This document shows positions 1 to 25,736 of a stretch of 64,000 bases of DNA, one piece after another. A program made the translations under genes and the position numbers. The notes beneath the pieces are model-generated. The model did no database searches. It was not told the origin of the DNA and saw only the letters and a program-made list of their open reading frames with translations. This stretch comes from Agrobacterium tumefaciens (GTDB lineage: Bacteria > Pseudomonadota > Alphaproteobacteria > Rhizobiales > Rhizobiaceae). Location of the stretch: the NCBI RefSeq assembly GCF_005221325.1, contig NZ_CP039890.1, forward strand, positions 248,001 through 312,000, read 5' to 3'. Numbering within the stretch: position 1 is the stretch's first letter; each line of letters begins with the position of its first letter.

Positions 1-961
1 TCCGGTCAAGCGTCGCGGACTGAAGAACGGCGTTGAACCCGGCTTCCATGACGTTGAACTGCTCAAGGGTGCGCGGACCGAGGATCACGGACGTCACGGC
101 AGCGTGCGCAAGCGGGAAAGCCTGAGCCATGTGCATAAGCGACATACCTGCCTCCGTTGCAATGCGCTCGAGTTCCGGGAGCAGTTCCAGCTTTCGCCGG
201 TTACCCTCGCGCTGCATGTCGAAGCGTGTTTGTAGGATCGGATAGTGCTGTCCCCACTGCCCCTTTACACGCTCGGCCCTCGATCCTGACGGCACCGAGC
301 CATCGGCCTTGTACTTGCCGGTCAACCAGCCGCCGTTCAGTGGGCTCCAGGCGGTGAAACCCATGCGGTAGTGTTGGACGGCGGGGAGGGTTTCCCTCTC
401 TGCGGCCCGCTGGAAAATAGAGTAGGGCGAGCTTTCATTGATAAATCGCGCTGTCTTGTTCAATCGGCTTACAGATTGTGTCTCCGCCAGATACCAGCTC
501 GGCATCGTCGAGCAGCCGATGTAGCGAACTTTCCCCTGCGTGACCAAGTCGTCGAGAGCACCGAGTGTTTCATCAAGATCGGCCTGAAGGTCGGGCCGAT
601 GCATCTGATAGAGATCGATGTGATCCGTGTTCAACCGTCGCAGGCTGTTTTCCACCTGCTTCATGATCCAGTAGCGCGACGCGCCTTGTTCGTTGCGTCC
701 CTCACCGGCCGCCAGGCGAAACTTGGTCGCAAGCACCACTTTGTCCCGCCGGCCTGCAATCGCTTTGCCGACGATCTCCTCGGATTCACCATGAGAGTAA
801 GTGTCGGCAGTGTCGATAAAGTTGATGCCGCGATCAAGCGCACTGTGCAGGATGTCTATACACTCTTTCTCGTCAGTATTCCCATCCGTTCCGTAGCTCA
901 TCGTGCCCAGCATGTACTCGCTGACCTGAACTCCAGTTCGTCCAAGGTACCGATATCTCAT
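1..961 (-). CDS. aldo/keto reductase, 3'-truncated by the window edge
   Basis: NADPH-dependent reductase of the aldo/keto reductase superfamily (TIM barrel, cytoplasmic). The reading frame starts at ATG 961 and stays open for 320 codons to the window edge, so only the last residues are missing. The catalytic tetrad is visible: Asp50 and Tyr55 in FIDTADTY, Lys80 in ATKF and His121 in QMHRPD. The N-terminus (RYLGRTGVQVS) is typical of YghZ/Tas-like members. It lies 240 bp downstream of the ABC binding-protein gene on the same strand, so it may act on the imported sugar or its keto form. That substrate link is inference. No frameshift was seen. Confidence 0.9.
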   Translation of the reverse strand, partial: MRYRYLGRTGVQVSEYMLGTMSYGTDGNTDEKECIDILHSALDRGINFIDTADTYSHGESEEIVGKAIAGRRDKVVLATKFRLAAGEGRNEQGASRYWIMKQVENSLRRLNTDHIDLYQMHRPDLQADLDETLGALDDLVTQGKVRYIGCSTMPSWYLAETQSVSRLNKTARFINESSPYSIFQRAAERETLPAVQHYRMGFTAWSPLNGGWLTGKYKADGSVPSGSRAERVKGQWGQHYPILQTRFDMQREGNRRKLELLPELERIATEAGMSLMHMAQAFPLAHAAVTSVILGPRTLEQFNVMEAGFNAVLQSATLDR

Positions 962-1201: not shown

Positions 1202-2500
1202 TTACTGCGCCTTCGCGAGTGCTGCACCATACCGTTCGATCAACTCATCGTAGGCATCCGCGGGCGATCCGTCTTTCAGGATCATTCTTTGGAAGGCTTC
1301 GCCGAGAATGGTATGGTAAGTGGACAGGATGGGAGTGTAGGTCACGGTTTGACCTCGCTGTGCCACCAGATCTGCCCATGCCTTCTGGTCTTTGCCGGCA
1401 TCGCCCTGGAAATAAGGCGCTGTATAAGCCGACTTGCGCGACACGACTTCACCACCTTCCGCTGCGAAGGCCTGCGCTTCGGGTGACACCATGAACTTCA
1501 CGAAGGTCCAGGCCGCATCCGGATTGGCGGTCTTCTTGTTGATGGCGATGTTGTAGCTGTACACGGTCTGTTTGTCGGTTGCCGCATAACCGGGCGCCGG
1601 AGCCCAGGCCAGATCGTCACCACCGCCTTGCTGCTTCACTGTCTTGTAGCGATAGACACCAAACACCGCGGTCGCCGCACTGCCGGACCGGAGCGCGTCA
1701 TGCAACTCATTGAACCCCATCTGGGCGCTGCGAAGAGGCGTGACTTTGCATTTCGTGTAGAAGTCTTTGATCGTTTGCGCCGCCTTGACAAACGACTCCT
1801 TGGAAAACGCGATCTTCCCCTCAGGCGTGAAGTATTCGCCGCCGTTTCCAGGCAACATCGTGCTCAGGAAGAATTCACCGAGGCTCTGGGCGCCACCAAG
1901 GCCACCGGTTGCTCCGAGCGGAACTGCGAACGGGATCGTATCCGATTGGCCGAGTTTGTCGCCCAGTGCACACACCTCATCCCAGGTCGTCGGCGGATTT
2001 ACGCCGGCCTTTTCCAGCATACTCTTGCGATAGAAGAGGATAGGAATACGGAAGTCCTGGGGAAGAGCGTAAAGCTTTCCGGTAACCTTCGTGCTCGACA
2101 GCGGCAGGAGCCAATCCTCGTCCGAAATGCCTTCCTTCTTGACCAGATCGTCAAGCTCGAGAAGATTTCCGGTGGCCGCAAATTCGGAAACCGCAAAGCC
2201 GACGACGCGGATCACATCTGGTGTCTGGCTTCCGGACTTGATAGCACGTGCTGCTGCTCCACCGGTCGGATCGACAAGCAGCTCGATCTTGATGTCCGGG
2301 TTCTTTGCCTGGAAAGCGTCGATCATCTTGGTCTGAGCAGCAGACCGGGGATCCTTCGCGTTGTTCGGATCGAGAAACGTCTGGTAGATGATCTTCGTGC
2401 TCTCGGCAAAGGCTTGCGGAGCAGCGAATGCGAGGATGGCGGTACCAATTGCTAGTGCCGCGGATGATTTGATAAGTTTCCGTTTCGATATGGTTTGCAT
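1202..2500 (-). CDS. ABC transporter extracellular sugar-binding protein (family 1)
   Basis: Periplasmic solute-binding subunit of a carbohydrate ABC importer, 432 aa. The start at ATG 2500 is chosen because GGGAGGGAAAC precedes it closely and it begins a good Sec signal peptide: basic MQTISKRKLIK, a hydrophobic core and AFA/E cleavage after about residue 32. The mature part has the family-1 layout (IIYQTFLDPNN, then PDVIRVVGF). It is the last gene of a minus-strand operon (ATPase, permease, permease, binding protein) under the IclR gene at 5591. It is clearly paralogous to the orphan binding protein at 16454-17758 (shared FLDP.N.KDPR and .VDP.G...A.....PDVIRV). The substrate is unknown; a sugar or sugar derivative is expected from the family. 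Confidence 0.93.
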   Translation of the reverse strand: MQTISKRKLIKSSAALAIGTAILAFAAPQAFAESTKIIYQTFLDPNNAKDPRSAAQTKMIDAFQAKNPDIKIELLVDPTGGAAARAIKSGSQTPDVIRVVGFAVSEFAATGNLLELDDLVKKEGISDEDWLLPLSSTKVTGKLYALPQDFRIPILFYRKSMLEKAGVNPPTTWDEVCALGDKLGQSDTIPFAVPLGATGGLGGAQSLGEFFLSTMLPGNGGEYFTPEGKIAFSKESFVKAAQTIKDFYTKCKVTPLRSAQMGFNELHDALRSGSAATAVFGVYRYKTVKQQGGGDDLAWAPAPGYAATDKQTVYSYNIAINKKTANPDAAWTFVKFMVSPEAQAFAAEGGEVVSRKSAYTAPYFQGDAGKDQKAWADLVAQRGQTVTYTPILSTYHTILGEAFQRMILKDGSPADAYDELIERYGAALAKAQ

Positions 2501-2547
2501 GCGTTTCCCTCCCATGTTGAACGAGTTGGTATAAAAGTTGGCGGTCA

Positions 2548-3393
2548 TCAGCCTTTGACGGCGCCTGCCGTCAGGCCGGAGATGAACCATTTTTGAACGA
2601 AGCCGAACATCAGGATAACCGGTGATGATGCGACCATCACAAACGCCATCATGTAGGACCAGGAAATGCCGACGGCGTCGAAGACCTGATTGACAAGCGC
2701 CACCTGGAGGGTCCGTTTTGCGACCTCGGGCGCAAAAACCGCCACAGTGATATAGTCGTTCCACGTTGTCACAATACCAATCGTCGCGACGGCCGCTATG
2801 CCTGGACGTATTAGCGGCAAGATCAGAGCCCAGATGATTTGAAACCGGGACGCGCCATCGATCATAGCGGAATCCTCGATCTCAATTGGAACGGCTTCGA
2901 CGAAATTGGCGATAAACCAGACGGTCTGCGGGATAATGCGAGCGGATAGGATTATCGTGATGACAATACCGCTGTTGAGCAAGCCGACCGTTTCCAGCAG
3001 ATAATAAGTCGGAACAAGCAGGGCGACCCCTGGAACCATCGAGGTTCCGAGTATCACCAGCATCAACGTCCGCTTGCCCCTGAAGGAAAAACGTGCGGCG
3101 GCATAACCTCCGGGAATTCCAACGAGGAGAGCGATGATGACGGCGCCAACGGAGTAGGCAACAGAGTTCCAAAGGTCGCTGAAGAAGGCCGCGTCCTTGA
3201 AGACCTTGGTGTAGTTATCCAAAGTTGGTGACGTTGGCCAAAGAGTAGGCGGAATAACAACCGCTTCGACTTCTGTCTTGAAAGATGTCGCAAAGGCCCA
3301 AAGCACTGGTCCAAGAACGATAATCGCGACAAGCAGTGAACCCAGGATCGCGGGTATCTGTCCGTTTGATCGGTTCGAGAGAGCGTTACTCAT
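2548..3393 (-). CDS. carbohydrate ABC transporter permease (MalG/UgpE type)
   Basis: Inner-membrane permease, 281 aa, of the CUT1 type. It has six predicted hydrophobic segments and the EAA cytoplasmic loop (EIEDSAMIDGASRFQIIWALILPLIRPG), which docks on the ATPase. The start ATG 3393 has AGGATCAGAT just upstream and lies 8 bp after the stop of the partner permease, so the two are co-translated neighbours. It forms the second half of the membrane channel for the sugar delivered by the binding protein encoded just downstream. Confidence 0.94.
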   Translation of the reverse strand: MSNALSNRSNGQIPAILGSLLVAIIVLGPVLWAFATSFKTEVEAVVIPPTLWPTSPTLDNYTKVFKDAAFFSDLWNSVAYSVGAVIIALLVGIPGGYAAARFSFRGKRTLMLVILGTSMVPGVALLVPTYYLLETVGLLNSGIVITIILSARIIPQTVWFIANFVEAVPIEIEDSAMIDGASRFQIIWALILPLIRPGIAAVATIGIVTTWNDYITVAVFAPEVAKRTLQVALVNQVFDAVGISWSYMMAFVMVASSPVILMFGFVQKWFISGLTAGAVKG

Positions 3394-3401
3394 ATCTGAT
3401 C

Positions 3402-4340
3402 CTATCCGGTAGCGCGGCCGGTCAGCCGGCTGTAAAGAGCACCAAGGGCGACATTGATGATCAGGACGACAATCGACACGACAGCCGTCGGCCCAATGTT
3501 GACCGCCTGAACGGTTCCACGAAAAGCTTCGAAACTGAGCGTCGTCGTAGACCCCAGTGGTCCTCCGCCGGTCATGACAATGATCAGCGTCATCAAGGTC
3601 AGGTACATGATGGAAAGCGTCAGCGCGGTGCTTCCCAAGGTGGGAAGGATTTCCGTGAACGTGACATAACGGAACTTCACAAACGCCCCGCCGCCATCGA
3701 TCTCAACTGCTTCATAGAGTTCTTTCGGAATGGACTGCATGGCTGCTGTCGCCATCACCATGACGTAAGGAAAGGACCACCAGGCTGTAACGATGATGAT
3801 GAGGGGCAATGCCATCCCCGGATCCCCTAACATCAGTCCCGGATCAATACCCAGTTTCTGGATCACGTAAGGCACAGGCCCAAATGAAGGGTTGAGGAGC
3901 CACAGCCAGATGCTGCCGACGACCGACATGGATAGCGTCCAAGGGAAAAGGATAAAAACCCGCAATGTAGAACCGGTAACGCCCGCCCTATTCAATACCA
4001 ACGCTGAGCCCAGGCCGAGGATCATCGCGCCGGCCAGAGACCCTCCAACATAGGTCAGAGAAATTATCGTCGTATCCCAGAACTCGGAAGAGGTCAGGAC
4101 TTCGGTGTAGTTGGTGAGACCGGTAAAGCCGACGAGCTCGTAGTATTTGGTTTTCTGGAAGCTCAACCAGATCACAAAGATCGTCGGATAAAGCGTCACG
4201 AGAAACAGGATCAAAATTGCGGGCGTAAACCATACAAAGGGAGCCCAACTAAAGCGGCTCACGATGTCAGTGTCATCCACGACGTCACTCGCCAGGTGCG
4301 TCGCGCTTTGATTGGTGACTTGAAGCGGTGGTATAGACAT
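3402..4340 (-). CDS. carbohydrate ABC transporter permease (MalF/UgpA type)
   Basis: Inner-membrane permease, 312 aa. The start at ATG 4340 (MSIPPLQVTNQ) gives the usual length for the family; the frame extends further upstream only into the intergenic region. It has an N-terminal transmembrane helix (PFVWFTPAILILFLVTLYP) and the EAA loop (IPKELYEAVEIDGGGAFVKFRYVTFTEILP). It pairs with the permease at 2548-3393 and is followed by it after 8 bp. It belongs to the importer with the ATPase at 4394 and the binding protein at 1202. Confidence 0.93.
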   Translation of the reverse strand: MSIPPLQVTNQSATHLASDVVDDTDIVSRFSWAPFVWFTPAILILFLVTLYPTIFVIWLSFQKTKYYELVGFTGLTNYTEVLTSSEFWDTTIISLTYVGGSLAGAMILGLGSALVLNRAGVTGSTLRVFILFPWTLSMSVVGSIWLWLLNPSFGPVPYVIQKLGIDPGLMLGDPGMALPLIIIVTAWWSFPYVMVMATAAMQSIPKELYEAVEIDGGGAFVKFRYVTFTEILPTLGSTALTLSIMYLTLMTLIIVMTGGGPLGSTTTLSFEAFRGTVQAVNIGPTAVVSIVVLIINVALGALYSRLTGRATG

Positions 4341-4393
4341 TCGATTACTATTCCCCTGTGGCCGTATCAGGCGGAGTGGGAGGCGTCGCGTCG

Positions 4394-5446
4394 TTAGGAC
4401 AAGCGCCTGCCAGTGCTCTCGCTGAAGAGATGGACGCGTGAAAGATCCGGGGCCACGGTGATGGTCTCGCCAACTTTCGGAAGAACCCGATCCCGGAATA
4501 TGCACACGATAGTTTGAGCGCCATGCCGAGCGATGATCTGGGTCTCGGAACCGGTCGGTTCGACGACGGTCACGGTAAGAGGCAGTCCCTCGTCGCTGAT
4601 CGTGAGATGCTCAGGACGCACGCCGTAGATCACCTTTTCCGACGTATCGGCGACGCCCGCAGGCAGAGGCAGCATGTGTCCATCCTCGAGAACGAACCGG
4701 CCTTCCTCCACTCGCCCGTTGAGAAAATTCATCGATGGCGATCCGATGAATCCAGCAACAAATACGTTGGCAGGGTAATCATACAGTTCAAGCGGCGCAC
4801 CGACTTGCTCGACGTAACCGTCGTGCATGACAACGATCTTATCGGCCATTGTCATTGCTTCGACCTGATCGTGGGTCACGTAAACGGTTGTGGTTTTGAG
4901 CCGCTGATGCAGTTCCTTGATCTCAGCGCGCATCTGTACGCGCAGTTTCGCGTCAAGGTTCGAGAGCGGCTCATCGAACAGGAATACTTGCGGATTGCGC
5001 ACAATCGCGCGACCCATCGCCACGCGCTGACGCTGCCCGCCCGAAAGTTCGCGAGGGTAACGATCGAGGAGCTTCGTAAGGCTCAGGATTTCAGCTGCCC
5101 GCTGAACGCGCATCTCTCGCTCCTCCCGCGGAGCCTTTTTGAGCTTCAGCGAAAAGCCCATGTTTTCCGCAACGGTCATATGCGGATAGAGGGCATAATT
5201 TTGGAATACCATGGCGATATCTCTCGCCTTCGGCGGGATGTCGTTAACGGTGCGTCCGCCGATCTGGATCTCGCCACCCGTGATATTTTCAAGGCCCGCG
5301 ATCATTCGCAACAGAGTTGATTTTCCGCAACCCGAGGGTCCAACGAGGGTTACAAACTCCCCTTCGTTGATATCGACAGACACGCCGTGAAGCACGCGTA
5401 CGGCGCCGTAAGCTTTGCGAACGGCTTTCAGCTCAACATTAGCCAA
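4394..5446 (-). CDS. sugar ABC transporter ATP-binding protein (MalK/UgpC type)
   Basis: Cytoplasmic ATPase powering the importer, 350 aa. A TTG start at 5446 is preferred because AGGAGG lies 6-8 bases upstream; the frame also runs back to a GTG at 5479 with no such site. Walker A GPSGCGKST is at residues 36-44, followed by the Q-loop (VFQNYAL), signature LSGGQRQR, Walker B VFLFDEP and H-loop THD. The last roughly 120 residues form the MalK/TOBE regulatory domain (IYGVRPEHL). It is the first gene of the operon. The operator-like site 5511-5523 lies between it and the IclR gene. A fossil copy of its first 45 codons, with the same RBS and TTG start, is at 18161-18281. Confidence 0.94.
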   Translation of the reverse strand: MANVELKAVRKAYGAVRVLHGVSVDINEGEFVTLVGPSGCGKSTLLRMIAGLENITGGEIQIGGRTVNDIPPKARDIAMVFQNYALYPHMTVAENMGFSLKLKKAPREEREMRVQRAAEILSLTKLLDRYPRELSGGQRQRVAMGRAIVRNPQVFLFDEPLSNLDAKLRVQMRAEIKELHQRLKTTTVYVTHDQVEAMTMADKIVVMHDGYVEQVGAPLELYDYPANVFVAGFIGSPSMNFLNGRVEEGRFVLEDGHMLPLPAGVADTSEKVIYGVRPEHLTISDEGLPLTVTVVEPTGSETQIIARHGAQTIVCIFRDRVLPKVGETITVAPDLSRVHLFSESTGRRLS

Positions 5447-5510
5447 CTGTTTCCTCCTACCAGCCGACGAGGCGGCCACCTAACCCAGCGCGATCTCCTC
5501 GATCACTATC

Positions 5511-5590: not shown

Positions 5591-6421
5591 TTATATAATA
5601 TTGCCAATGACTTGGGCCCGATGTGATGGGCTCGTTTGCGGGGTAGCCGACGCGATGCGATAGGGCCAGAGTTGAGAAAGTTCCTGAGCAGTTGCCTTCA
5701 CCTGTTCCGCCAATTGAGGCAGTACAAGCGGTGAAAAGTGGTGAATCGGTCCAGCGATGCTCACCGTTCCCACAACCTGACCGCCGACGCGAATGACAGC
5801 AGCGACAGCAGCGACGCCCGGTTCAGCTTCCTCAATCGCAGTGGCCCACCCTCGTTCTTCGGTCTCATCCAAAGCCGCGGAAAATGTCTGCCTGGAGGTG
5901 ATAACCCGCGGGCCACCAAGGTCTGTTCGCCCTAGTCCGCTCGCCACGGCCCTTGCTAACGCTTCCTCTCGATCCAGTGTTGCCAGCCACGCTTTTCCGT
6001 TAGCAGTCGTGTGCAATGGAACTTTTGCAACGAGTTCTGGCTGGTAAATCAAGCCCGATCGCATCCCTTGTGAATGGGATATCCAGGTCAAACCATCAGG
6101 GTCAAGGATCGCAATCCTGCCGAGCCCCTTCGTATTGCTCGCTAACCGGTCCAGAATCGGTTGGCAGATGTCGGGAATCCGTGTTCCAGCTAGCAGGCGC
6201 TGGCCCACGACGGCGAGGCGCAATGAAAGTCGGTAGAATCCGTTCTCAGGGTCCTGCTCGGCCCAACCTAAGTCACACAGACTGTTGAGCAGGCGGTGCG
6301 CCGCGCTTTTCGGGACATCCAGCCGGCGACTGATTTCGCCCAGTGACAGCCCGCTGGCGTTCTCGCTCAACAGCGTAATGACGTCGAAACAGCGGTCTAG
6401 AAGGGATTTGACAAGTCGCAT
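5591..6421 (-). CDS. IclR-family transcriptional regulator (first copy)
   Basis: DNA-binding regulator, 276 aa. The N-terminal winged helix (about residues 5-65: LLDRCFDVITLLSEN, LSLGEISRRLDVPKSAAHRLLNSL) is followed by the IclR effector-binding domain (KVPLHTTANGKAWLATL, then EEAEPGVAAVAAVI). It is transcribed towards the ABC operon and divergently from the Gfo/Idh gene at 6591, with an operator-like palindrome on each side. It is roughly 85% identical by eye to the IclR at 18434-19264, including the identical first 12 residues. It probably senses the sugar or a breakdown product; the effector is unknown. Confidence 0.94.
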   Translation of the reverse strand: MRLVKSLLDRCFDVITLLSENASGLSLGEISRRLDVPKSAAHRLLNSLCDLGWAEQDPENGFYRLSLRLAVVGQRLLAGTRIPDICQPILDRLASNTKGLGRIAILDPDGLTWISHSQGMRSGLIYQPELVAKVPLHTTANGKAWLATLDREEALARAVASGLGRTDLGGPRVITSRQTFSAALDETEERGWATAIEEAEPGVAAVAAVIRVGGQVVGTVSIAGPIHHFSPLVLPQLAEQVKATAQELSQLWPYRIASATPQTSPSHRAQVIGNII

Positions 6422-6590: not shown

Positions 6591-7598
6591 ATGAAAATTG
6601 CAGTTTTTGACGTCAGCCATTGGCACTTTCCGCTTTACATCCCTGCGCTGAAGGATCCGGGCGTTGAGGTAATTGGCATATCGGACAGCGCTTCGTTTGC
6701 CGGTGCTCGTTTTTCTGATCTGCTTGATTGTAAGCTCTACGGCTCCAATGAGGAGCTCCTGGATGCGGACTTCGACTTCGCCATTGTATTGAGCCGACAC
6801 TCCGACATGGTCAAACTTGCTGAGCGGCTGATTGCCATGGGCAAGCCTTTCTTGATTGAGAAGCCGTGCGGGCTCAATCTGCAGGAGGTTCGTCGTATCC
6901 GCAGCTTAGCCGAAGAACGTGGTGTTTACGTTAGTGTGCCTTTTATCCAGCGCGTAAGTGAACTGGCCGATCGTTTATCACCGGCCGCAGGGCTCACGCC
7001 CGACGGGTTTCAACACTTGTCCTTCAGGTTCATTGTGGGGTCGGTCGCCCGTTACGAGCGGAATGGATGCGCGTGGATGCTGGAAAAGCACCACGCTGGA
7101 GGTGGATCGATGCTCAATGTTGGCATTCACTTCATCGACCTGATCTCGACACTCACGCAAAGTCCCATCACCCGTGTTGCAGGAGAGGTTCGGATCTATC
7201 GACCTGACGTGACTGTCGACGAACAGGCTGTCTTCACCTGCCGAACTGCCGCAGGACAGATTGGTGTGATCGAGACAGGCTATTTGTATCCGTCCACCGC
7301 CGACGATCAGCGGGATTTTGCCTTTTCGCTCGCTCATCGCGAACGCTATATTCGCGGGTATGCCGATCAATTCTACGCCAAATCGCCCGAACAGGAGAAG
7401 GCTTCTGCCACGAACATCGAGTACAATACCGACGAATATTACCCAGTCTTCCTTCGCCGCAGCTGGGCGGATTTAGCGAGCGGCCGTCCTCCCGTTGCAG
7501 GCCTGCTGGAAGCGGAGCGCGCGCTCGCCGTGCTTGAGGCGGGCTACCGATCAGCGACCAATGGTGGAGCGCCTGAGGACGTGGAAACGACCAGTTAG
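6591..7598 (+). CDS. Gfo/Idh/MocA family oxidoreductase
   Basis: NAD(P)-dependent sugar or cyclitol dehydrogenase-like protein, 335 aa, cytoplasmic. The N-terminal Rossmann part (MKIAVFDVSHWHFPLYIPAL) lacks the usual GxGxxG, having FDVSHWH instead. That is seen in some distant members but makes the cofactor use uncertain. The conserved EKP motif is present (PFLIEKPCGL, near residue 90), as is the C-terminal domain motif GGGSMLNVGIHFIDL, whose His/Asp pair is catalytic in the family. It is the first gene of a plus-strand run with an SMP-30 lactonase and a second Gfo/Idh enzyme, which suggests dehydrogenation to a lactone followed by hydrolysis. The substrate is unknown. Confidence 0.88.
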   Translation: MKIAVFDVSHWHFPLYIPALKDPGVEVIGISDSASFAGARFSDLLDCKLYGSNEELLDADFDFAIVLSRHSDMVKLAERLIAMGKPFLIEKPCGLNLQEVRRIRSLAEERGVYVSVPFIQRVSELADRLSPAAGLTPDGFQHLSFRFIVGSVARYERNGCAWMLEKHHAGGGSMLNVGIHFIDLISTLTQSPITRVAGEVRIYRPDVTVDEQAVFTCRTAAGQIGVIETGYLYPSTADDQRDFAFSLAHRERYIRGYADQFYAKSPEQEKASATNIEYNTDEYYPVFLRRSWADLASGRPPVAGLLEAERALAVLEAGYRSATNGGAPEDVETTS

Positions 7599-7619: not shown

Positions 7620-8585
7620 ATGATCGCAGACCAAATGACAAAACCCGACATTGAGATAATTGCGACGGGACTTCACTTTCCCGAAGGACCGGTCGAACTT
7701 CCTGACGGTTCGATTGCCGTCGTGGAGATCGGTGCCGGTAGAATCATTAGGATCAGCGGAGCCGGAAAACACGAAGTATTGGCCCATACCGGCGGCGGAC
7801 CTAATGGGATGGCTCTAGGCCCGGATGGAGCACTCTACGTTTGCAATAACGGAGGGTTTTCCTGGAAGCAGGAGGGTGAGTGGTTGCGACCTGTTGGTCT
7901 TGCCCCTGATTACTCCGGTGGATTGGTCCAAAGGGTCGATATCGCTACCGGTGAGGTGAATACCTTGTATGACCGGTGCGACGGCCGGACACTTAGCGGC
8001 CCAAACGACATCGTTTTCGACAATAACGGCGGATTTTATTTTACCGACACGGGCAGGGTTCGGGAGTTCCAGCGCGACCACGGTGGTGTATTTTACGCAA
8101 GAGCCGATGGCAGTTGGATAAAGAAAGTGGTGTTTCCGCTCCTGACACCCAATGGAGTTGGTCTATCTCCCGATCTTAAGACTCTCTACGTCGCCGAAAT
8201 GGAAACAGCCAGGTTATGGAGCTACGCGATAGTGAAGCCGGGGGTGGTTGAGAGAACGCCGTTCCCGAGCCAAAGCGGAGGGGAGCTTGTCGTTGGTCTT
8301 GACGGCTTCCAGAGGTTCGACAGCCTGAAGGTCGCAGCTTCTGGTAACATCTGCGTCGCAACCTTAGTGACGGGATGTATAACCGTTGTTTCACCACAGG
8401 GCGAACTGCTCGACCAAGTGAGGATGCCGGATATCTATCCCACAAATCTGGGGTTTGTAGGGCAAGACTTACAAGATGCTATCGTCACTCTGTCGTTGAC
8501 AGGCGAGGTTGGCCGGCTTCGGTGGCCAGAGAAAGGTCTAAGACTGCAACATCAGGGTTTGCCTAGTCCTGGCCCGCCTCGGTAG
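7620..8585 (+). CDS. SMP-30/gluconolactonase family protein
   Basis: Six-bladed beta-propeller lactonase of the SMP-30/LRE family, 321 aa (307 if ATG 7635 is used). It shows the family signatures: FPEGPVELPDGS near the N-terminus (metal-binding Glu), GGPNGMALGPDGALYVCNN, LSGPNDIVFDNNGGFYFTD (metal-binding Asn/Asp), and LLTPNGVGLSPD. The family hydrolyses sugar lactones using a divalent metal. It lies 21 bp after the first Gfo/Idh gene and 149 bp before the second, which fits hydrolysis of the lactone made by one of these dehydrogenases. No signal peptide, so cytoplasmic. Confidence 0.92.
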   Translation: MIADQMTKPDIEIIATGLHFPEGPVELPDGSIAVVEIGAGRIIRISGAGKHEVLAHTGGGPNGMALGPDGALYVCNNGGFSWKQEGEWLRPVGLAPDYSGGLVQRVDIATGEVNTLYDRCDGRTLSGPNDIVFDNNGGFYFTDTGRVREFQRDHGGVFYARADGSWIKKVVFPLLTPNGVGLSPDLKTLYVAEMETARLWSYAIVKPGVVERTPFPSQSGGELVVGLDGFQRFDSLKVAASGNICVATLVTGCITVVSPQGELLDQVRMPDIYPTNLGFVGQDLQDAIVTLSLTGEVGRLRWPEKGLRLQHQGLPSPGPPR

Positions 8586-8734
8586 AGGCCTGTTCGCAAA
8601 AGCGGCTAATTATGGCGATGGAAAGCCGCGGATCGCATCGATGCCCTCTCGGGCGGACCGCCGTGTGCAATCGCAGAGGTTCCTCGAATTTTGCAAGCAT
8701 GAGCATTTTCATCCAAGGGTGGGAGGAATCAGAA

Positions 8735-9793
8735 ATGAGCGGGATTATTGGGAAACCACGGATCGGCGTAATCGGGGTAGGTTGGATTGGTTATCGCCAT
8801 GCGAAATATTGTGCCTCTTACAGCAATTGCGAACTGGTCGGCATAAGCGATCCTGGACCGGTTGCTTCGAAAGTCGGGGTTGAGCTCGGTGTTCCCAGCT
8901 TCGCTTCGGTTGAGGATCTGCTGGATCGCGTCAAACCCGACGGCGTTATCATCGCAACGCCGACGCAGCTCCATCTTCAGACTGCTGCACGCGCACTCGA
9001 GCGAGGCGTCGCGGTTTTGATCGAAAAGCCAATAACCGACACCGTAGCTGACGCTCGGACGCTGGTTGACCTCGCCAAGCGCAACGAGACCTCCATCCTG
9101 GTTGGCCATCATCGGCGTCATAACTCAGTGGTGAAGGAGACACGAAGGATTCTGAGCGAAGGCGACATTGGCCGATTGCTCGCGGTCAGCGTGCTCTGGT
9201 CCGTCAAGAAGCCGGATGATTACTTCGATGTGTCCTGGCGGCGGGAAAAGGGTGCGGGGCCCGTACTGATCAATCTCATTCATGAGATCGACCTTCTTCG
9301 ACATCTCTGCGGGGAGATTGAGACAGTCTCTGCAATCGTTTCGAGCGAGGGGCGCGGAAACTCGGTCGAGGACACTGTGGTGGCCATGCTCAAATTCAGC
9401 GGCGGTGCGATTGGGACCATCACGGCCTCCGATGCGTCTCCCGCTCCTTGGTCCTGGGATTCCGCGACCGGAGAAAACCCATTGATTTACCAGGGACGGG
9501 AGAATGCCTACCGTTTCCTTGGATCCGAGGGGTCTCTTGAATTTCCAGACCTTTTCATCTGGCGCTACGTTGATCAGGCAAAGCCAGGTTGGCTATCGCC
9601 GATCTCGCGTGAATCGCGCGTCATTCAACAGAACGAGGCTTACATTGCTCAACTAGAACATTTCTGTCGCGTCATCCAATGTGGAGAGACGCCACTAATC
9701 GACGGAGAAGACGGTTTGCGTACCCTCACGGCAACTCTCTCCATCCTCGAAGCAGCCGAGACAGGCATGCCTGTCACCCCTACGATGGGTTAA
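8735..9793 (+). CDS. Gfo/Idh/MocA family oxidoreductase
   Basis: NAD(P)-dependent dehydrogenase, 352 aa. The start at ATG 8735 is chosen because GGGAGGAATC precedes it and it opens directly into the Rossmann fold (RIGVIGVGWIGYRHAKYC, with GVGWIG). EKP occurs at VAVLIEKPITDT. The catalytic-domain motif is GAGPVLINLIHEIDLLRHL, with the conserved His-x-x-Asp. This second member is much closer to canonical myo-inositol/glucose-fructose-type dehydrogenases than the protein at 6591. It ends the plus-strand catabolic run and is followed by a hairpin at 9926-9958. Confidence 0.93.
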   Translation: MSGIIGKPRIGVIGVGWIGYRHAKYCASYSNCELVGISDPGPVASKVGVELGVPSFASVEDLLDRVKPDGVIIATPTQLHLQTAARALERGVAVLIEKPITDTVADARTLVDLAKRNETSILVGHHRRHNSVVKETRRILSEGDIGRLLAVSVLWSVKKPDDYFDVSWRREKGAGPVLINLIHEIDLLRHLCGEIETVSAIVSSEGRGNSVEDTVVAMLKFSGGAIGTITASDASPAPWSWDSATGENPLIYQGRENAYRFLGSEGSLEFPDLFIWRYVDQAKPGWLSPISRESRVIQQNEAYIAQLEHFCRVIQCGETPLIDGEDGLRTLTATLSILEAAETGMPVTPTMG

Positions 9794-9975: not shown

Positions 9976-10785
9976 CTAAGCCCAAAGCTCGCAGATATGG
10001 TCAACGGTCAGGTCGGCCTGTCCAGTGATCATGTGCATCCCGGAATGGGTCTCGACACCCTTTTTGGCAGCAAGCGCGAGAAGCCTGGTCGTCTCTGGCT
10101 GGGCAATGACTTCAGCAAATGTCATCCCCGGTTTTAGAAGATCGGGATCGAGCGGCAGGGCGTCCGAATCTTGAAGGCCGAGCGACGTGGCATTGACGAC
10201 GAGCTGACCCGCTTCCGGCTCGGCTTTGCCCGCCTTGGCAACCTTCCTTCCAAAGTCGGCGTTCACTGTCTCCGCCAGCGCTTCGGCTTTATCAAAGGTC
10301 CGGTTGGACACCGTGATGCTGTCGGCTCCTGCCTCGACCAAAGCAAACGCTATGGCAACCGAAGCACCGCCCGCTCCAATGATGAGAGCGTCGCGACCCT
10401 TGATCGCGACCCCTTTCGATTGCAGGCCCCGCACGAAGCCTTTTCCATCGAATTGATAGCCCCGAAATGTGCCGTCAAGTTCACGCCGAACAAAGTTGAC
10501 AGCGCCGACCCGGGCGGCAACCGGGTCAAGACTATCGCATAGATCGATGGCGGTCTGCTTGTGGGGCAGGGTGATGCCGAACCCCACGAGGTTCGGCATA
10601 GCCTTCAGACCGGCCCAGATCGTAGCCAGATCTGTTGCCGGAACATGGAGTGGGACAGAGACGATATCCGCTCCACGTGCCGCAAAGAGCGGATTGACCG
10701 CCGCTGGCGACTTGGCCTGGACGATCGGATCACCGATGATGCCGATCAGCCTGGTCGTGCCGCGAATAGTGACACCGTTTACCAC
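9976..10785 (-). CDS. shikimate dehydrogenase-like oxidoreductase (AroE family)
   Basis: NAD(P)-dependent dehydrogenase of the shikimate/quinate family, 269 aa. The GTG start at 10785 overlaps the end of the propeller gene by 7 bases (GTGGTAA), with GCGAGGAAC upstream, so translation is probably coupled. Visible motifs are GITLPHK (catalytic Lys in the family), GYQFDGKGF (catalytic Asp kept, but the usual Asn-Thr before it replaced by Gln-Phe), the nucleotide loop GAGGAS, SNRT, and NATSLG. The altered NTD motif and the catabolic context argue against a housekeeping aroE. A role in oxidising or reducing a cyclic polyol or keto-sugar is inference. Confidence 0.87.
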   Translation of the reverse strand: MVNGVTIRGTTRLIGIIGDPIVQAKSPAAVNPLFAARGADIVSVPLHVPATDLATIWAGLKAMPNLVGFGITLPHKQTAIDLCDSLDPVAARVGAVNFVRRELDGTFRGYQFDGKGFVRGLQSKGVAIKGRDALIIGAGGASVAIAFALVEAGADSITVSNRTFDKAEALAETVNADFGRKVAKAGKAEPEAGQLVVNATSLGLQDSDALPLDPDLLKPGMTFAEVIAQPETTRLLALAAKKGVETHSGMHMITGQADLTVDHICELWA

Positions 10786-12752
10786 GACAGTTCCTCGCGC
10801 TTGAGCCAGACGATGCTGCCGTCCTCGATGCCGACGATAAGGTCGAGCACACCGCGACCAGCCCAATCGGCGACTTCAGGAGAGGCGACATGCATCGCCA
10901 TTTGAATGGTCTCGTTCCGATGTTTGATCGGAACCGGCAATGCGAAACGAGGCTCTTCCGGTGTCCCGATGTTGCGCGCGTAGAAGAGGCCGGCCTGCTT
11001 GGTGGTGTTGCGCGGCGCGCCGGTTTTCGGATCGGGCGGCACGCAGGCGCGAGCATGGGTGCCGAAGATCAGATCGGTACGACCAGTCCCTTCCCAATCG
11101 CAAAAGCACAGCTTCACACGACCGCGTCCACCGCCGACATCCACGGTGAAGCGCATGGCGTCACCATCTTCCCATTGGAGGAAACGCTTGTCGATGAGTT
11201 CGGTATCCGAGGCTTTCCTCCAGTCACTGAGGACGCCGTCCTCATCCAATGCGACATAGTGAAGGTCGTTGTCCCCGAGCCAGTCGACGACTGCAGGCCT
11301 CACCCGCCAGACCGTCTTCAGCGGCTTGCCCCTGTATGTGAGGAATTCCTCTTCGCCAAAGCGCGGCGGAATCGTTTTTTCGCCGGTATTGCGAAATAGA
11401 CGGTGCCTTCCCGTTACGTCGCTGACGAGAATGTCCATGCTGCCATCGCCCGTCCAGTCGGCCAGTGTCGGGCAGGAATAGCCGAACATCTTTTCCGATG
11501 GCCCCTGTATTGAACCGGTCAGACCGGCCGCAAGTCGGATCGGCTTCTCGCCGCCCTTCAGCATGACTTCTTTGTCGAGATAGATGGTGCCGTCCTTTTC
11601 CCGGCTCTGGTAGAAGAGAAGTTCGCCGGTACTGTTGCCGACAACCAGGTCGTAGTGCCCATCACCGCTGAAATCATATGCAGCCGGGCTTGGCAGGATG
11701 CCGGCATGGATCAGTGGCTTTTCAGTCTCGATTCGGCCTCGCTGCTCGAAGCGCGGCAATCCGTCCTCGCCATCGCCGACGTTTTTGAGGAAACTGATAT
11801 AGCCGTCCTCAGCGCCGTAAAGGATATCCTCGCGGCCGTCGCCATCCCAATCCACCACACAGGGCAGGTGGATGCATTGTTCGAGTTCCAGAACTTTGTC
11901 ATCGATCGTGCGGATCAAGCTGGTCGGCTCGAAGGTTCCGTCTTCGCGCTGTCTTGCGATGTGCAGGATATTCCAGAATTCGCCAGCTATCACACTCTGG
12001 CGCTCTGCACCGAAGCGGCCGAAAGCCGGAGCAAGCTGGCCATAGACTTCGAGCGGCGTCTCGCCGGCGATGAGCGCATGCCCCTTTTCCAGTACGGGAG
12101 CCGCGAGCGTGCCACTGTTCTTGAAGGCGTAAAGGAAACCGCGTAGCGGACCGCCCAGCCAGCGGCCGGCATCGTCATATCCGCGATACCCTTCATCATT
12201 CCATTCCAGGCCGTTCGGCCAGTAGTCGTTCCAGTAGTCGCTACCGACGATCAACTCATCGACGCCGTCGTCATCGATGTCGTGGAAGCGGGCCATGTGG
12301 AAATACTCATTGCCCTTGACCCAGTCGGCCTCGAGATCGAGCCTTACGGGATCGCCGAATTTCGGGGCTCCCTTTACGCCGATATTGGGAAAGACGTATA
12401 TCTGCTTGCGCAGACGTGATGTCGAGACGAGGTGGAAAGTATCGCCGTCCCTGACGGCAGTCACGTAGCCGCGCACACCGTCGACCAGTTCCTCTTCACC
12501 CAAAACAGGTGTCCCGTCGGAGTTTGTTCCGATCTGGCGGCGCAGAAAAACACGGCCGTCATAACAGGCGTCCCATGCTGAAATCAGCATGTCCTTCGTG
12601 CCTGTGCCGCTCCAGTCCACAATTTCGACGCAGGTGATGATGCGCCCTGCAACGGCTGCCGACTTGACGTCCGGGTGGTATTTCAAAGCCTCCGGGCCAT
12701 AGTCTGGACCGTGCCACAGAGTGGCATCGTCCTCCCATCTTGTTACGCTCAT
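10779..12752 (-). CDS. cytoplasmic FG-GAP/VCBS-repeat beta-propeller protein
   Basis: A 657-aa protein made of about eight repeats with a DW.G.G..D-(I/L) core: IVDWSGTGTKD, DIDDDGVDE, VVDWDGDGRED, AYDFSGDGHYD, LADWTGDGSMD, VVDWLGDND, FCDWEGTGRTD and VADWAGRGVLD. Such DxDGxxD loops bind calcium and mark propeller blades. Eight blades is the fold of PL11-type rhamnogalacturonan lyases, but no catalytic residues can be assigned here. No signal peptide or membrane segment is present, which is unusual because most VCBS/FG-GAP proteins are secreted. It is translationally coupled to the AroE-like gene and preceded by operator-like site 12783-12795. It is probably an enzyme or scaffold of the sugar pathway; the true function is unknown. 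Confidence 0.85.
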   Translation of the reverse strand: MSVTRWEDDATLWHGPDYGPEALKYHPDVKSAAVAGRIITCVEIVDWSGTGTKDMLISAWDACYDGRVFLRRQIGTNSDGTPVLGEEELVDGVRGYVTAVRDGDTFHLVSTSRLRKQIYVFPNIGVKGAPKFGDPVRLDLEADWVKGNEYFHMARFHDIDDDGVDELIVGSDYWNDYWPNGLEWNDEGYRGYDDAGRWLGGPLRGFLYAFKNSGTLAAPVLEKGHALIAGETPLEVYGQLAPAFGRFGAERQSVIAGEFWNILHIARQREDGTFEPTSLIRTIDDKVLELEQCIHLPCVVDWDGDGREDILYGAEDGYISFLKNVGDGEDGLPRFEQRGRIETEKPLIHAGILPSPAAYDFSGDGHYDLVVGNSTGELLFYQSREKDGTIYLDKEVMLKGGEKPIRLAAGLTGSIQGPSEKMFGYSCPTLADWTGDGSMDILVSDVTGRHRLFRNTGEKTIPPRFGEEEFLTYRGKPLKTVWRVRPAVVDWLGDNDLHYVALDEDGVLSDWRKASDTELIDKRFLQWEDGDAMRFTVDVGGGRGRVKLCFCDWEGTGRTDLIFGTHARACVPPDPKTGAPRNTTKQAGLFYARNIGTPEEPRFALPVPIKHRNETIQMAMHVASPEVADWAGRGVLDLIVGIEDGSIVWLKREELSW

Positions 12753-12782
12753 CGCAAACCCTCTCTAATTGCGCACTTAATT

Positions 12783-12795
12783 GGAACTGATTTCT
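12783..12795. promoter_or_regulatory. IclR-type operator, site 3
   Basis: GGAACTGATTTCT, 31 bp upstream of the propeller gene start. Same GGAA-N5-TTCY form as the other sites. The rest of the 351-bp gap 12753-13103 between the propeller gene and the next IclR gene shows nothing else recognisable. Confidence 0.5.
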
Positions 12796-13103
12796 AAAAC
12801 GAAACCACCTTTCGAATCTAGTAGAAAATTTTGTCAGGCGCGCTTTAGGGGCAGGACATCGGGTAGTGATATAGGGAGGAAGAAGAGGCTGATGTCCGGT
12901 AGAAGGCAGAGCATTAACGTGAGTTTGCTCCCAATCAGCCTGCGTTGCTGGCGCACTGGCACTGGACAAGCTGTTCGATCAGGAGTGCGGGTAGGCGCAG
13001 AACCGCTTTGTGAGGACACATCACGAGGTCTGCAATGGCAGAGCCCGGCGATCCTTGCAGATCCAACCGGCCGCGTTCTGCGTTAAAGTAACTTTAGGCG
13101 CAG

Positions 13104-13928
13104 CTACAGCACTGCGCCGGTTGCTACGATCAGTGGCGTCATGGTTCGCTGACGAACTCGCAGAGGCCAGATGTCGCTCAGTTCTTCCGCAGCTTTTTTG
13201 AGGGAACAGACTAAGTCGGGCCAACGATCTTCGGTTATGCGCATAAGAGGCCCCGCAACGGAGATGGTTCCAGCGACCGGCGCTTCAGCATCAGAACTCG
13301 TTCGAAAGGGAACCGCGACTGCTGCGGTACCAGCCTCACCCTCCTCGACAGAGGTTGCGAAGCCCCGCTCCCGGGTTTCATTCAGTCGGACCCTGAGTTC
13401 ATCGATCGACCGAGCAGAATTGGGCCCAAGCTTTCGTTTGGCCGTAAAACCGCGAGAATAAATGATTTCCAGAGCCTGTTCTTCGGGTAGGGTGGAAAGC
13501 CATGCTTTTCCATTTGCCGTTGCGTGAAGAACGATCTCTTGTCCCATGTCCGGATCATATCGGAGGCCGGTTGTTGCACCTTGTGCGCGTGCCACCCATA
13601 TCAAATCCCGACCCTCCAGAATCGCTAAGCGGCAATACTCTTGCGTCTCCGTAGCCAACCGATTCAGGACCGATTGGACCACGTCGGGGACGTTCCGGGC
13701 ATCGAGATTCCGGAAGGCCAACGCGCTCAAACGGAGAGAAAGGGCATAGTTTTGACTCGCGGCGTCTTGGGTAACCCAACCATGGTTAATAAGGGTAGTC
13801 AAAAGGCGATGGACCGCACTGGCCGGCATATCGAGGCGTCCGGCAAGATCGGACAACTCGATAGATCCTGCTTCTCCAGCCAGCACTTCCAAAAGCGTGA
13901 GGCATCGTGATACGGCTGCGACGGTCAA
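13104..13928 (-). CDS. IclR-family transcriptional regulator (divergent member)
   Basis: Regulator of 274 aa with an N-terminal winged helix (AAVSRCLTLLEVLAGEAGSIELSDLAGRLDMPASAVHRLLTTL, residues about 4-46) and an IclR ligand domain (IVLHATANGKAWLSTLPEE, then VEEGEAGTAAVAVPF). It is related to, but clearly distinct from, the two near-identical IclR proteins at 5591 and 18434. It lies upstream of the propeller/AroE-like pair on the same strand and divergent from the PfkB kinase, so it probably controls both. Two operator-like sites lie in its 317-bp upstream region. Confidence 0.93.
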   Translation of the reverse strand: MTVAAVSRCLTLLEVLAGEAGSIELSDLAGRLDMPASAVHRLLTTLINHGWVTQDAASQNYALSLRLSALAFRNLDARNVPDVVQSVLNRLATETQEYCRLAILEGRDLIWVARAQGATTGLRYDPDMGQEIVLHATANGKAWLSTLPEEQALEIIYSRGFTAKRKLGPNSARSIDELRVRLNETRERGFATSVEEGEAGTAAVAVPFRTSSDAEAPVAGTISVAGPLMRITEDRWPDLVCSLKKAAEELSDIWPLRVRQRTMTPLIVATGAVL

Positions 13929-14245: not shown

Positions 14246-15121
14246 ATGATTGTCACGTTCGGGTCAATAAATGCTGACCTCATTTATCTGGTCGACGAGA
14301 TACCTCAAGCTGGACAGACGGTCTTAGCCCGCGGATCACGAACAGAGGCTGGAGGGAAGGGGGCTAACCAAGCCCTCGCAGCCGCACGGGATGGCGCGAA
14401 TGTCGTGATGATCGGTGCTGTGGGTAACGACGCGATGGCCCCCATTGCCCTCCAGAATCTGGAACGCGAAGTCGATATCAGCCGTGTGGTTCGATTAGAG
14501 GAGCGTACTGGCTCCGCCGCTATAATGATCGATACCGATGGCCGCAATATGATAGCGGTAGCAGCAGGCGCCAACCTGGCAGCCCAGTCGAATGGCGTTG
14601 AAGATGAGCTGCTTTGTAACGCAAATTACGTCCTCATGCAGATGGAAAGCGACACTGTTCAGATCGAAAATTTGATCAGACGGGTTTTCAATCATTCCGC
14701 AAAATCGATCCTCAATCTGGCGCCGGCCTACCGGCTGGATCGCGACCTTCTCTCGCTCGTCGATATCCTAATCGTCAACGAAGACGAGGCGGAAGCTCTT
14801 TCTGGTTGGCTTGATTGCGAGCCGAGCGCGAGATCGTTGTCCGGCGCTCTCAACACCGGCGTCTTACGCACCAAGGGAGGAGAGGGAGCTGAAGCTTTCA
14901 TCAACGGCGAGGACGTAACGGTCCCGGCGCTACGGGTCGACGCTGTGGATACGACCGCAGCTGGTGATTGTTTTGTAGGCGTCCTCGCGTCTGCTCTCGA
15001 TCGAGGTCTCTCGCTCGACGCGGCAATGCGACGAGCCGCAAAAGCCGCTGCGATTGCGTGTTCGCGTCTTGGAAGCCAGTCGAGTATTCCTCACTACGAC
15101 GAGACAGACAGCTGGACTTGA
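14246..15121 (+). CDS. PfkB-family sugar kinase (ribokinase-like)
   Basis: ATP-dependent carbohydrate kinase, 291 aa, cytoplasmic. The first PfkB signature is GGKGANQALAAAR (residues about 36-48). The second is DAVDTTAAGDCFVGVLASAL, with the catalytic base Asp in AAGD and the anion hole. The overall layout matches ribokinase (MIVTFGSINADLIYLVDEIPQAGQT). It phosphorylates a free pentose or related sugar in known relatives; the actual substrate is unknown. Its place divergent from the IclR gene suggests it activates the product of the neighbouring dehydrogenases or the propeller protein. Confidence 0.92.
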   Translation: MIVTFGSINADLIYLVDEIPQAGQTVLARGSRTEAGGKGANQALAAARDGANVVMIGAVGNDAMAPIALQNLEREVDISRVVRLEERTGSAAIMIDTDGRNMIAVAAGANLAAQSNGVEDELLCNANYVLMQMESDTVQIENLIRRVFNHSAKSILNLAPAYRLDRDLLSLVDILIVNEDEAEALSGWLDCEPSARSLSGALNTGVLRTKGGEGAEAFINGEDVTVPALRVDAVDTTAAGDCFVGVLASALDRGLSLDAAMRRAAKAAAIACSRLGSQSSIPHYDETDSWT

Positions 15122-23179: not shown

Positions 23180-23965
23180 CTACCGGAAACGGCTTGGTGG
23201 AGCGCCATTCCTCTCCTTGACCCGCCGTGAAAAATGCGCCGGGCTCCGGAATCCGCAGCGATGGGATATCTCGTCGATTGTCAGGCTGGTGGACTGCAGC
23301 ATCTGGATACCCGCATCCAGCCTTCTCTGCCACAAATAATGCATCGGCGGCTCGCCGAGATAGGTCTTGAAAAGATGAATGAGGTAGTTTGCGTTTGTAC
23401 CGGCGAGGCTCGCGAGCTTTGGAACGGTCCATGATCGTGAATATTCACTGTCGAGCGCCTTTTTTGCCACGCTAACCGCCTTTGGCAATGGCCTCGTTCG
23501 CCCCGCAAGCTGGGTGCCTCGGATATATTCCGCGAGGATCGTTCGGCCGAGCGAATTGCGCATGTGGTTGGTGACATCATGCTCGCCCGGGGCAGCGGAT
23601 TCCTGCTGCAAGGAGAGAGCGCCGGCAAAGAGTGATGGTATCAAAGGAGGAATCGGCTGGGCGGCCGGCAAATTTTCCAGTACCGACCAGTCGTCCTCCG
23701 ACAGCGCATCCGGGGAGAAGTGGCACCACATTGTCTGAACCTTTTGGTCGCTGTTCGAAAGCGCGTGGAGATCGACGTGATACGCCTGCAATGTGGCGCA
23801 GGGCGCATGCACAACACGTACACGGCCATCGACGATGAACCGCACCGACCCCTTCATAATGAGCGATACCTCGACACGTGGTTCGCCGAAATAAGTGCCG
23901 GCAGGATTGTTGTCGCTTGTCGCCTTATGAAAGTGAAAATTATAGTCTCGACTTAAAATCTCCAT
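23180..23965 (-). CDS. AraC-family transcriptional regulator
   Basis: 261 aa. The start ATG 23965 has AGGAAGGA 8 bases upstream. The N-terminal half is a cupin-like sensor (EPRVEVSLIMKGSVRFIVDG). The C-terminal double helix-turn-helix starts near residue 165 (WTVPKLASLAGTNANYLIHLFKTYLGEPPMHYL, then LTIDEISHRCGFRSPAHFSRRVK). It is divergent from the purine permease/adenine deaminase genes across 391 bp and is their most likely regulator. Confidence 0.9.
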   Translation of the reverse strand: MEILSRDYNFHFHKATSDNNPAGTYFGEPRVEVSLIMKGSVRFIVDGRVRVVHAPCATLQAYHVDLHALSNSDQKVQTMWCHFSPDALSEDDWSVLENLPAAQPIPPLIPSLFAGALSLQQESAAPGEHDVTNHMRNSLGRTILAEYIRGTQLAGRTRPLPKAVSVAKKALDSEYSRSWTVPKLASLAGTNANYLIHLFKTYLGEPPMHYLWQRRLDAGIQMLQSTSLTIDEISHRCGFRSPAHFSRRVKERNGAPPSRFR

Positions 23966-24356
23966 AACTCGATCCTTCCTACAGAACAGCCCGCATCCGG
24001 TGCGTAGTTGCACTCGGTCGGCTGCGGGTTGGTGTGAGAACCTCGGCCTTTGCCAGGCTACGACGGGGCTCCATGTCGATAACAAGCAATATTTGTGCCT
24101 AACTCGTCGCATTCTATGCGAGCGCTGACCCGCCTGTCTCGCTGCGGTTAGGCATTCGCGCCAAGGCTAAAAACAATCCCTATGCCCGGACCGAAGCCTC
24201 TCGGTTGTCAGAATGCGCAATCTTCCTGAATTCCAATCAACTTCACGAAGCCGCAGTCATGGCGCCCGCCTTTTCATGACGATATCCAGTTTCATCACGC
24301 TCGATAGACAGCAAAAAGCTGCCAACGCGACGGCAAAAACAGGGGAACGATAGGCA
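23966..24356. other. 391-bp divergent promoter region before the purine genes
   Basis: It separates the AraC gene from the NCS2 permease. I looked for a purine-riboswitch-like fold and for palindromes and saw none that could be defended; promoter elements cannot be fixed by eye. Confidence 0.4.
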
Positions 24357-25724: not shown

Positions 25725-25736
25725 GGAGCGCGCACC

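Follow-up and report, generated by a model that had tools for sequence, protein, structure and literature searches.

What does a protein built of propeller repeats do inside a bacterial cell, when its gene runs into that of an AroE-like oxidoreductase whose NTD motif has become QFD? The pair lies in a 64,000-nucleotide stretch of Agrobacterium tumefaciens DNA (contig NZ_CP039890.1, positions 248,001 to 312,000; hereafter the window), and the gene position agrees with that in the RefSeq plasmid record pAtCFBP5877a (A. tumefaciens CFBP5877, NZ_CP039899.1, 438,854 bp), which is typed as conjugative. We refer to the two products as PROP and AroEp, and to those of three genes just outside the window, on the same plasmid, as XI3, AroE2 and the DHDPS-like aldolase:

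10779..12752, minus strand: PROP, a 657-aa FG-GAP/VCBS protein with predicted tandem five-bladed beta-propellers (residues ~30-342 and 343-657)
9976..10785, minus strand: AroEp, an AroE-like oxidoreductase of 269 aa with a GTG start, QFD for NTD, AKSP for SxSP, and NRT (NADP-type)
record 245220-247817, past the aldo/keto reductase gene at the window edge: XI3 (xylose-isomerase-like), AroE2 (a second AroE-like protein; 246182-247009) and the DHDPS-like aldolase

The five genes are inherited together, and the set very probably serves the use of a sugar-like compound. Possibly PROP and AroEp both act as enzymes in a mobile module that breaks down such a compound after its import, be it a cyclitol, an anhydrosugar or a sugar acid.

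Co-inheritance of PROP, AroEp and three partners

The two genes have seven bases in common, GTGGTAA (record 258779-258785), with the GTG start of AroEp inside the 3' end of PROP; the RefSeq annotation agrees, and an earlier description of the window, made from the sequence alone (the preliminary description), had read the same overlap. We compared this locus with 36 others from genomes (37 in all), fetching up to 10 kb of flank; PROP is cut at a contig end in two of them (L031 and L043), leaving 34 informative loci. In 31 of these the gene immediately 3' of PROP is AroEp, at 54-95% identity. Its place is taken in L034 and L035 by a short-chain dehydrogenase/reductase (SDR), the two SDRs being 65% identical to each other and that of L035 overlapping PROP by seven bases, and in L039 by an IclR gene. 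An NAD(P)-type oxidoreductase is next to PROP in 33 of the 34 loci, and the SDRs indicate that the redox partner was replaced rather than lost. PROP itself is split into shorter open reading frames in L030 and L037, through sequencing error or decay.

Full-length PROP occurs in four of 101 relatives' genomes, three more of the seven matches being short repeat matches; the same four genomes carry an adjacent AroEp at 61% identity or above, the next best AroEp among the 101 reaching 44%. Among 72,556 plasmids, the bulk of PROP is present in 20 records, and AroEp at no less than 60% in precisely these 20. Within those 20 records only, XI3 (at least 60%) is found in 19, the DHDPS-like protein (at least 77%) in 19 and AroE2 (at least 60%) in 18, as counted from the 40 best matches and checked against identity-band counts of the full list. 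In the 36 loci, our own being subtracted, XI3 was present in 27, the DHDPS-like protein in 25, AroE2 in 20, any IclR gene in 31 and a PfkB gene in 15. PROP, AroEp, AroE2, XI3 and the DHDPS-like protein are co-inherited. A frequent arrangement places the DHDPS-like gene divergent from PROP-AroEp, followed by AroE2, XI3 and an importer in convergent orientation, and the window's plasmid is arranged otherwise. In a class-wide survey of 385 genomes PROP was found (E 1e-40) only in its own, the other 384 being without it, which makes the module a rare, patchy and accessory trait.

The preliminary description had tied a cytoplasmic propeller to a non-canonical AroE within a sugar-type catabolic cluster and proposed a new sugar or cyclitol pathway. 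The first claim is supported and the co-inherited catabolic gene set supports the second; in the loci examined, the pair was not scattered without sugar genes, the outcome that the description had named as telling against its proposal.

Some copies of the module have settings of their own. Neorhizobium galegae (CP090555.1, 179662-182438) has matches to PROP in three pieces and to AroEp in two, with XI3, AroE2 and the DHDPS-like protein not found there at 60% identity or above, apparently a decayed copy. In a metagenome-assembled genome of Rhodospirillales (L035, 7226-15818), genes for a 7-bladed lactonase and for DctP lie ahead of PROP, and the SDR is followed, by eye, by open reading frames for the binding protein and permeases of a sugar importer. 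The module of Sinorhizobium chiapasense (L058, 17464-22029) is flanked by electron transfer flavoprotein and KDO cytidylyltransferase-type genes. As for other pAt plasmids (loci L057 and L059), the module has trb conjugation genes near it on pAt15955, and a transposase and an acyl-homoserine-lactone synthase gene near it on pAtl-11a.

Predicted fold of PROP and motifs of the AroE-like proteins

PROP belongs to the VCBS/FG-GAP superfamily, its FG-GAP_3 (PF13517) match scoring 66.1 bits against a gathering score of 26.9. Its Pfam matches are to FG-GAP/VCBS-type repeats only, and a search of NCBIfam returned no match. As the preliminary description had counted, the motif DW.G.G..D occurs eight times (D46, D158, D301, D360, D432, D490, D552 and D629), and each of the eight DxDxDG-like motifs precedes the strand assigned as B in the structural model, that is, it lies in the A-B loop of a blade. 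The N-terminus (MSVTRWEDDATLWHGP) lacks a hydrophobic export segment, judged by eye and again in agreement with that description, and PROP is apparently cytoplasmic. It has 340 homologues at E <= 1e-3 among 7996 candidates scored; the 120 listed share 48-94% identity and are nearly all full length, the many full-length ones coming mainly from Alphaproteobacteria, and an alignment of PROP with 23 chosen homologues has a mean column identity of 62%. Among the papers listed in literature searches we recognised none describing PROP or the PROP-AroEp pair, nor a function of PROP, which is not proof of absence.

The AlphaFold model (mean predicted local distance difference test score, 90) has ten blades by strand reading, against the eight that the preliminary description had assigned. 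Each half aligned to complete five-bladed rings in a structure search with the AF2 model, and the predicted ten blades are best read as two joined five-bladed propellers. A duplication of a whole half was also considered; in hhalign the two halves could be joined over no more than 111 columns, those surrounding the FG-GAP blades (probability 97.7, E 2.3e-12), and therefore such a duplication is not shown.

The predicted model has the five-bladed propeller fold of the GH43/GH62/GH32 clan of glycoside hydrolases (GH). One of the propellers might thus hydrolyse an imported glycoside, the AroE-like proteins then oxidising or reducing the released aglycone or sugar. We regard this as unlikely, since PROP has no GH Pfam match, its blades are of the FG-GAP/VCBS type, likeness of fold shows no function, and the accompanying importer is often NMT1- or TRAP-type (TRAP, tripartite ATP-independent periplasmic).

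Conservation was scored for the loops in 117 sequences, PROP as query plus 116 of the 120 listed homologues, after dropping four outside 640-720 aa. The B-C and D-A loops, which form the top face, are better conserved than the A-B and C-D loops (mean 0.77 vs 0.65, Mann-Whitney p = 3e-6), with loop borders assigned from the DSSP string and with positions and sequences that are not independent. The excess is present in both the N-half (p = 0.001) and the C-half (p = 4e-4), and the top-face loops contain 35 invariant (>= 97%) polar or aromatic residues. Examples are W60, D61, C63, Y64, S112, R113, R115, E149 and E183 in the N-half, and S414, Q416, E420, W482, R483, D538, R545, R581, T584, Q586 and H621 in the C-half. 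On this pattern the conserved faces look like ligand or active sites rather than plain scaffold.

PROP could also be non-catalytic, a cytoplasmic protein that binds or senses the substrate or serves as a scaffold on which AroEp docks. Propellers of this kind are mostly recognition sites, according to PMC8023676, and the translational overlap of the two genes suggests a complex. However, invariant Arg, Glu, Asp, His and Tyr abound in the top loops, which argues against it, and the SDR, of another fold, that stands in the place of AroEp in L034 and L035 argues against a dedicated docking surface for AroEp; we consider a non-catalytic PROP improbable.

AroEp is a member of the AroE superfamily (PF08501, 69.9 bits), although it scores 167.3 bits against the TIGR00507 cut-off of 200.2 and also falls below the cut-offs of the other AroE-type NCBIfam models listed. 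Its nearest solved relative is 4k28, followed by ordinary shikimate dehydrogenases, with the 5-ketofructose reductase 7cok at row 13; 4k28 is likewise nearest to AroE2. We aligned 32 AroEp sequences, our own included, 20 of AroE2 and the two other AroE paralogues of the genome. The Lys, Asn, Asp and Gln at what we take to be positions 65, 86, 102 and 244 of E. coli AroE are kept in all 32 AroEp and all 20 AroE2 sequences, and in both paralogues; the Lys and the Asp are the catalytic residues. The first Ser of SxSP is replaced by A, V or I in 32/32 AroEp and by V in 20/20 AroE2, and NTD by QFD and LFD, respectively, in every sequence; the two paralogues keep the canonical SxSP and NTD. QFD, which the preliminary description had noticed in the one protein, is thus a family signature, found in 107 of the 120 AroEp homologues listed (another triplet in 9, and 4 missed by the regular expression). 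The protein of 4k28, presumably RifI2 and named in the PDB as a shikimate dehydrogenase family protein, has comparable changes, V-K-S for SxS and NVD for NTD, as against QFD in AroEp and LFD in AroE2; we know of no propeller partner of a RifI2-type protein.

The SxS serines of shikimate dehydrogenases bind the carboxylate of the substrate, and because this Ser is lost in both AroEp and AroE2, shikimate is unlikely to be the substrate of either; for AroEp, the sequence argues against ordinary shikimate activity. All 32 AroEp proteins have NRT (NADP-type), and the first position is Asp (19) or Glu (1) in AroE2 (NAD-type). Such opposite cofactor types suggest that one enzyme oxidises and the other reduces.

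Alternatively, the core might be a variant route of the quinate/shikimate type in which XI3, by family relation, would act like a 3-dehydroshikimate dehydratase; two AroE-like proteins and an AP_endonuc_2 protein would suit it, and the best NCBIfam match of the regulators is PcaR/PcaU, below its cut-off. We find it very unlikely, given the lost carboxylate-binding Ser and the changed NTD in both AroE-like proteins, the presence of a DHDPS-like aldolase in the core, and the sole NCBIfam match of XI3 at 1e-5, to IolO, which stays far short of the cut-off.

AroE2 is annotated as hypothetical or as a ThiF family adenylyltransferase in several RefSeq records, the latter probably a misnaming, and as shikimate dehydrogenase in others. 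One Paraburkholderia region and three relatives' loci (the latter from a crude choice of open reading frames) hold more distant AroE-like paralogues, with no match to PROP, XI3 or the DHDPS-like protein.

Partner enzymes, importers and neighbouring genes

The DHDPS-like protein has the motif set of the DHDPS/NAL class I aldolases, the Schiff-base Lys and Tyr motifs LKDVS and YECP being kept in 22 of 22 sequences, and reaches no curated cut-off. The closest structures to XI3 are 3ju2 and 3qc0 (SMc04130-type; uncharacterised or named as a sugar isomerase). Some plasmids that lack PROP carry relatives of the DHDPS-like protein at 57-65% identity (those at 60-65% in 15 records outside the 20), so that this enzyme by itself is no marker of the module. 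Four such PROP-less regions were read: a PfkB/ribokinase-type gene stands beside the relative in three, and none does so in pAtC58. In NZ_CP034710.1, NZ_CP091309.1 and NC_016586.1 (L061, L062 and L064), relatives at 58-61% have a PfkB/ribokinase-type gene next to them or close by, again without PROP, and the same run holds a major facilitator superfamily transporter in L062 and a TRAP transporter in L064; such a set is a possible stand-alone mini-pathway.

The importers in the 36 loci are NMT1-type (17), TRAP DctM (7, some far from PROP) or have a UgpC-type ATPase (7). For the NMT1-type protein of L020 the nearest match is 4nmy, with thiamine-pyrimidine proteins next, and for the TRAP protein of L026 it is 4pf8, which we take to be a hexuronate binder; neither decides the substrate. 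Calystegine catabolism was considered as well, and nothing among the papers listed linked it to these genes.

The remaining features of the window around the pair are as follows:

12789..12818, minus strand: conserved upstream block with inverted arms GATTC...GAAATC, a probable regulator operator
13104..13928, minus strand: IclR-family regulator, directly upstream of PROP and in the same direction
14246..15121, plus strand: PfkB/ribokinase-like kinase (relative in 16/37 loci including our own)
8612..9793, plus strand: Gfo/Idh/MocA oxidoreductase, variable neighbour (3/37, including our own)
7620..8585, plus strand: SMP-30/gluconolactonase family protein, variable neighbour (6/37, including our own)
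6591..7598, plus strand: Gfo/Idh/MocA oxidoreductase, variable neighbour (10/37, including our own)
5591..6421, minus strand: second IclR-family regulator
1202..5479, minus strand: CUT1 sugar ABC importer (UgpC-type ATPase, two permeases and binding protein)
1..913, minus strand: aldo/keto reductase, continuing past the window edge

In an alignment of the window with five related loci, the block GATTyGAAAG...TTTCGTTTTAGAAATC alone is kept upstream of PROP, the remaining upstream DNA being mostly divergent, and its pattern matches the window once only, at 12789-12818. The block is a probable regulator operator, in line with the IclR-type site of the preliminary description.

That description had also named two Gfo/Idh dehydrogenases, an SMP-30 lactonase, a PfkB kinase and a sugar ABC importer as neighbours, all of which are present, and had inferred that PROP is an intracellular lyase or hydrolase of an oxidised glycoside; we take this as a PL11-like lyase whose glycoside substrate the Gfo/Idh pair would oxidise. 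PL11 lyases are eight-bladed and normally secreted, and PROP differs from them in its ten predicted blades in two five-bladed rings and in having no PL11 Pfam match, either as the whole protein (E up to 1e-3) or as either half (E up to 0.01). The family is not foreign to PROP, since PMC8023676 presents PL11 rhamnogalacturonan lyases as VCBS-linked propellers and links RGL11 to the VCBS supercluster. Moreover, the pair has Gfo/Idh and SMP-30 genes alongside it in the window, and certain other pAt plasmids resemble the window in this: pAtl-11a and pAt15955 both carry annotated Gfo/Idh genes no more than 15 kb away, and one of the two has SMP-30 near the module. Relatives of the window's own Gfo/Idh and SMP-30 proteins, however, occur in a minority of loci, so that the oxidised-glycoside argument rests on a feature confined to some relatives, and AroE2, XI3 and the DHDPS-like protein are better conserved partners. 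We hold a PL11-like role to be highly improbable; that PL11 entries were not among the 50 structural matches listed excludes nothing.

Farther off in the window are an ISNCY family transposase gene near the cluster (20442-21833) and, at 23180-27599, an AraC-type regulator, an NCS2 permease and an adenine-deaminase-like gene, probably a separate purine operon. Past the window (G000:C3:241499-245088) the plasmid encodes a further two xylose-isomerase-like proteins and an SDR, together with a protein that has no Pfam match; a relative of the latter, at 48% identity, lies near PROP in L015. In pAtl-11a a gene annotated as 2-keto-4-pentenoate hydratase stands at a comparable place.

A proposed route and its parallels

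A pair of dehydrogenases together with an epimerase, an aldolase and, in many cases, a kinase follows the ordinary logic of sugar-acid or cyclitol catabolism. AroE2 (NAD-type) would turn an alcohol group of the substrate into a ketone. PROP may then, and here our confidence is modest, carry out a ketone-assisted step, a beta-elimination or ring opening like that of aldos-2-ulose dehydratase (AUDH), yielding a product that AroEp (NADP-type) would reduce. XI3 would epimerise or isomerise the product of AroEp, the DHDPS-like class I aldolase would release pyruvate from a 2-oxo acid, leaving an aldehyde or sugar, and the PfkB kinase, where present, would phosphorylate the aldehyde or sugar so released. 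PROP may, tentatively, be the founding member of a family of intracellular lyases or dehydratases in which two five-bladed VCBS propellers are joined in tandem. Its step would fall between those of two AroE-type dehydrogenases that do not act on shikimate and prefer opposite cofactors, and the pathway would be a new catabolic one, spread by plasmids, for a cyclitol, anhydrosugar or sugar acid of plant or microbial origin.

We assign the elimination or ring opening to PROP because of this catabolic gene logic, the propeller site of AUDH and parallels in the breakdown of levoglucosan and 5-keto-L-gluconate. In AUDH the propeller, with the catalytic zinc in it, stands before a pair of cupin domains and a lectin domain. 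The propeller site reportedly dehydrates a keto-sugar (Claesson 2012). AUDH (4a7y) and the PVL and PLL lectins, structural relatives of the C-half of PROP in Foldseek, likewise have FG-GAP_3 blades, and 4a7y is matched by that half with an E of 3.5e-4, at rank 31. The domain layout differs, PROP having no cupin or lectin Pfam match and blades over its full length; it has two predicted five-bladed rings, whereas the propellers of AUDH, TcB and PVL are seven-bladed (PMC8023676).

The levoglucosan pathway LgdA-B1-B2-C (PMC7676230) oxidises, eliminates, hydrates and reduces; it shares this logic with our proposal, as well as the involvement of proteins annotated as sugar phosphate isomerases. It differs in that its final reductase, LgdC, is of the Gfo/Idh type, its product is glucose, and it has neither a propeller nor an aldolase. 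The IolO-type epimerase route leads from 5-keto-L-gluconate to 2-keto-3-deoxygluconate (KDG), and this and L-glucose-type routes to KDG have the same series as the module, dehydrogenase, epimerase, reductase, kinase and aldolase, with XI3 weakly IolO-like (PMC12632266). In contrast, the passages on these routes name no AroE-like or propeller enzyme, and their aldolase is that for 2-keto-3-deoxy-6-phosphogluconate (KDPG), not of the DHDPS type.

Several points weigh against the route proposed here. The likeness to AUDH is one among many VCBS-type structural matches of PROP; a phmmer search of the PDB (E up to 10) found no relative of PROP among solved structures, and a profile search gave one chance match, Complement C3 (E 0.02), and no propeller. 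The varying type of importer indicates no single substrate class. Plasmid records and loci are interrelated, and the counts given above are not independent events. AroE2, in 20 of the 36 loci, is dispensable in some or lies beyond the fetched flank; L034, L035 and L039 have PROP but yielded no orthologous AroEp, AroE2, XI3 or DHDPS-like gene (L039 has another DHDPS-family gene nearby); and ~11-14 kb separate PROP from XI3, AroE2 and the DHDPS-like gene on the plasmid of the window. Finally, we know of no activity, ligand or growth phenotype for any member of the module families.

Both the architecture of PROP and the module look new, assembled from known kinds of parts, and the set is small enough, with five core genes, to be directly testable. 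In the module, two unusual dehydrogenases of the AroE type are tightly co-inherited with a propeller whose type is familiar chiefly from recognition domains. Its substrate, once found, would explain a nutritional trait carried on agrobacterial and rhizobial plasmids, and could add a new class of enzyme.

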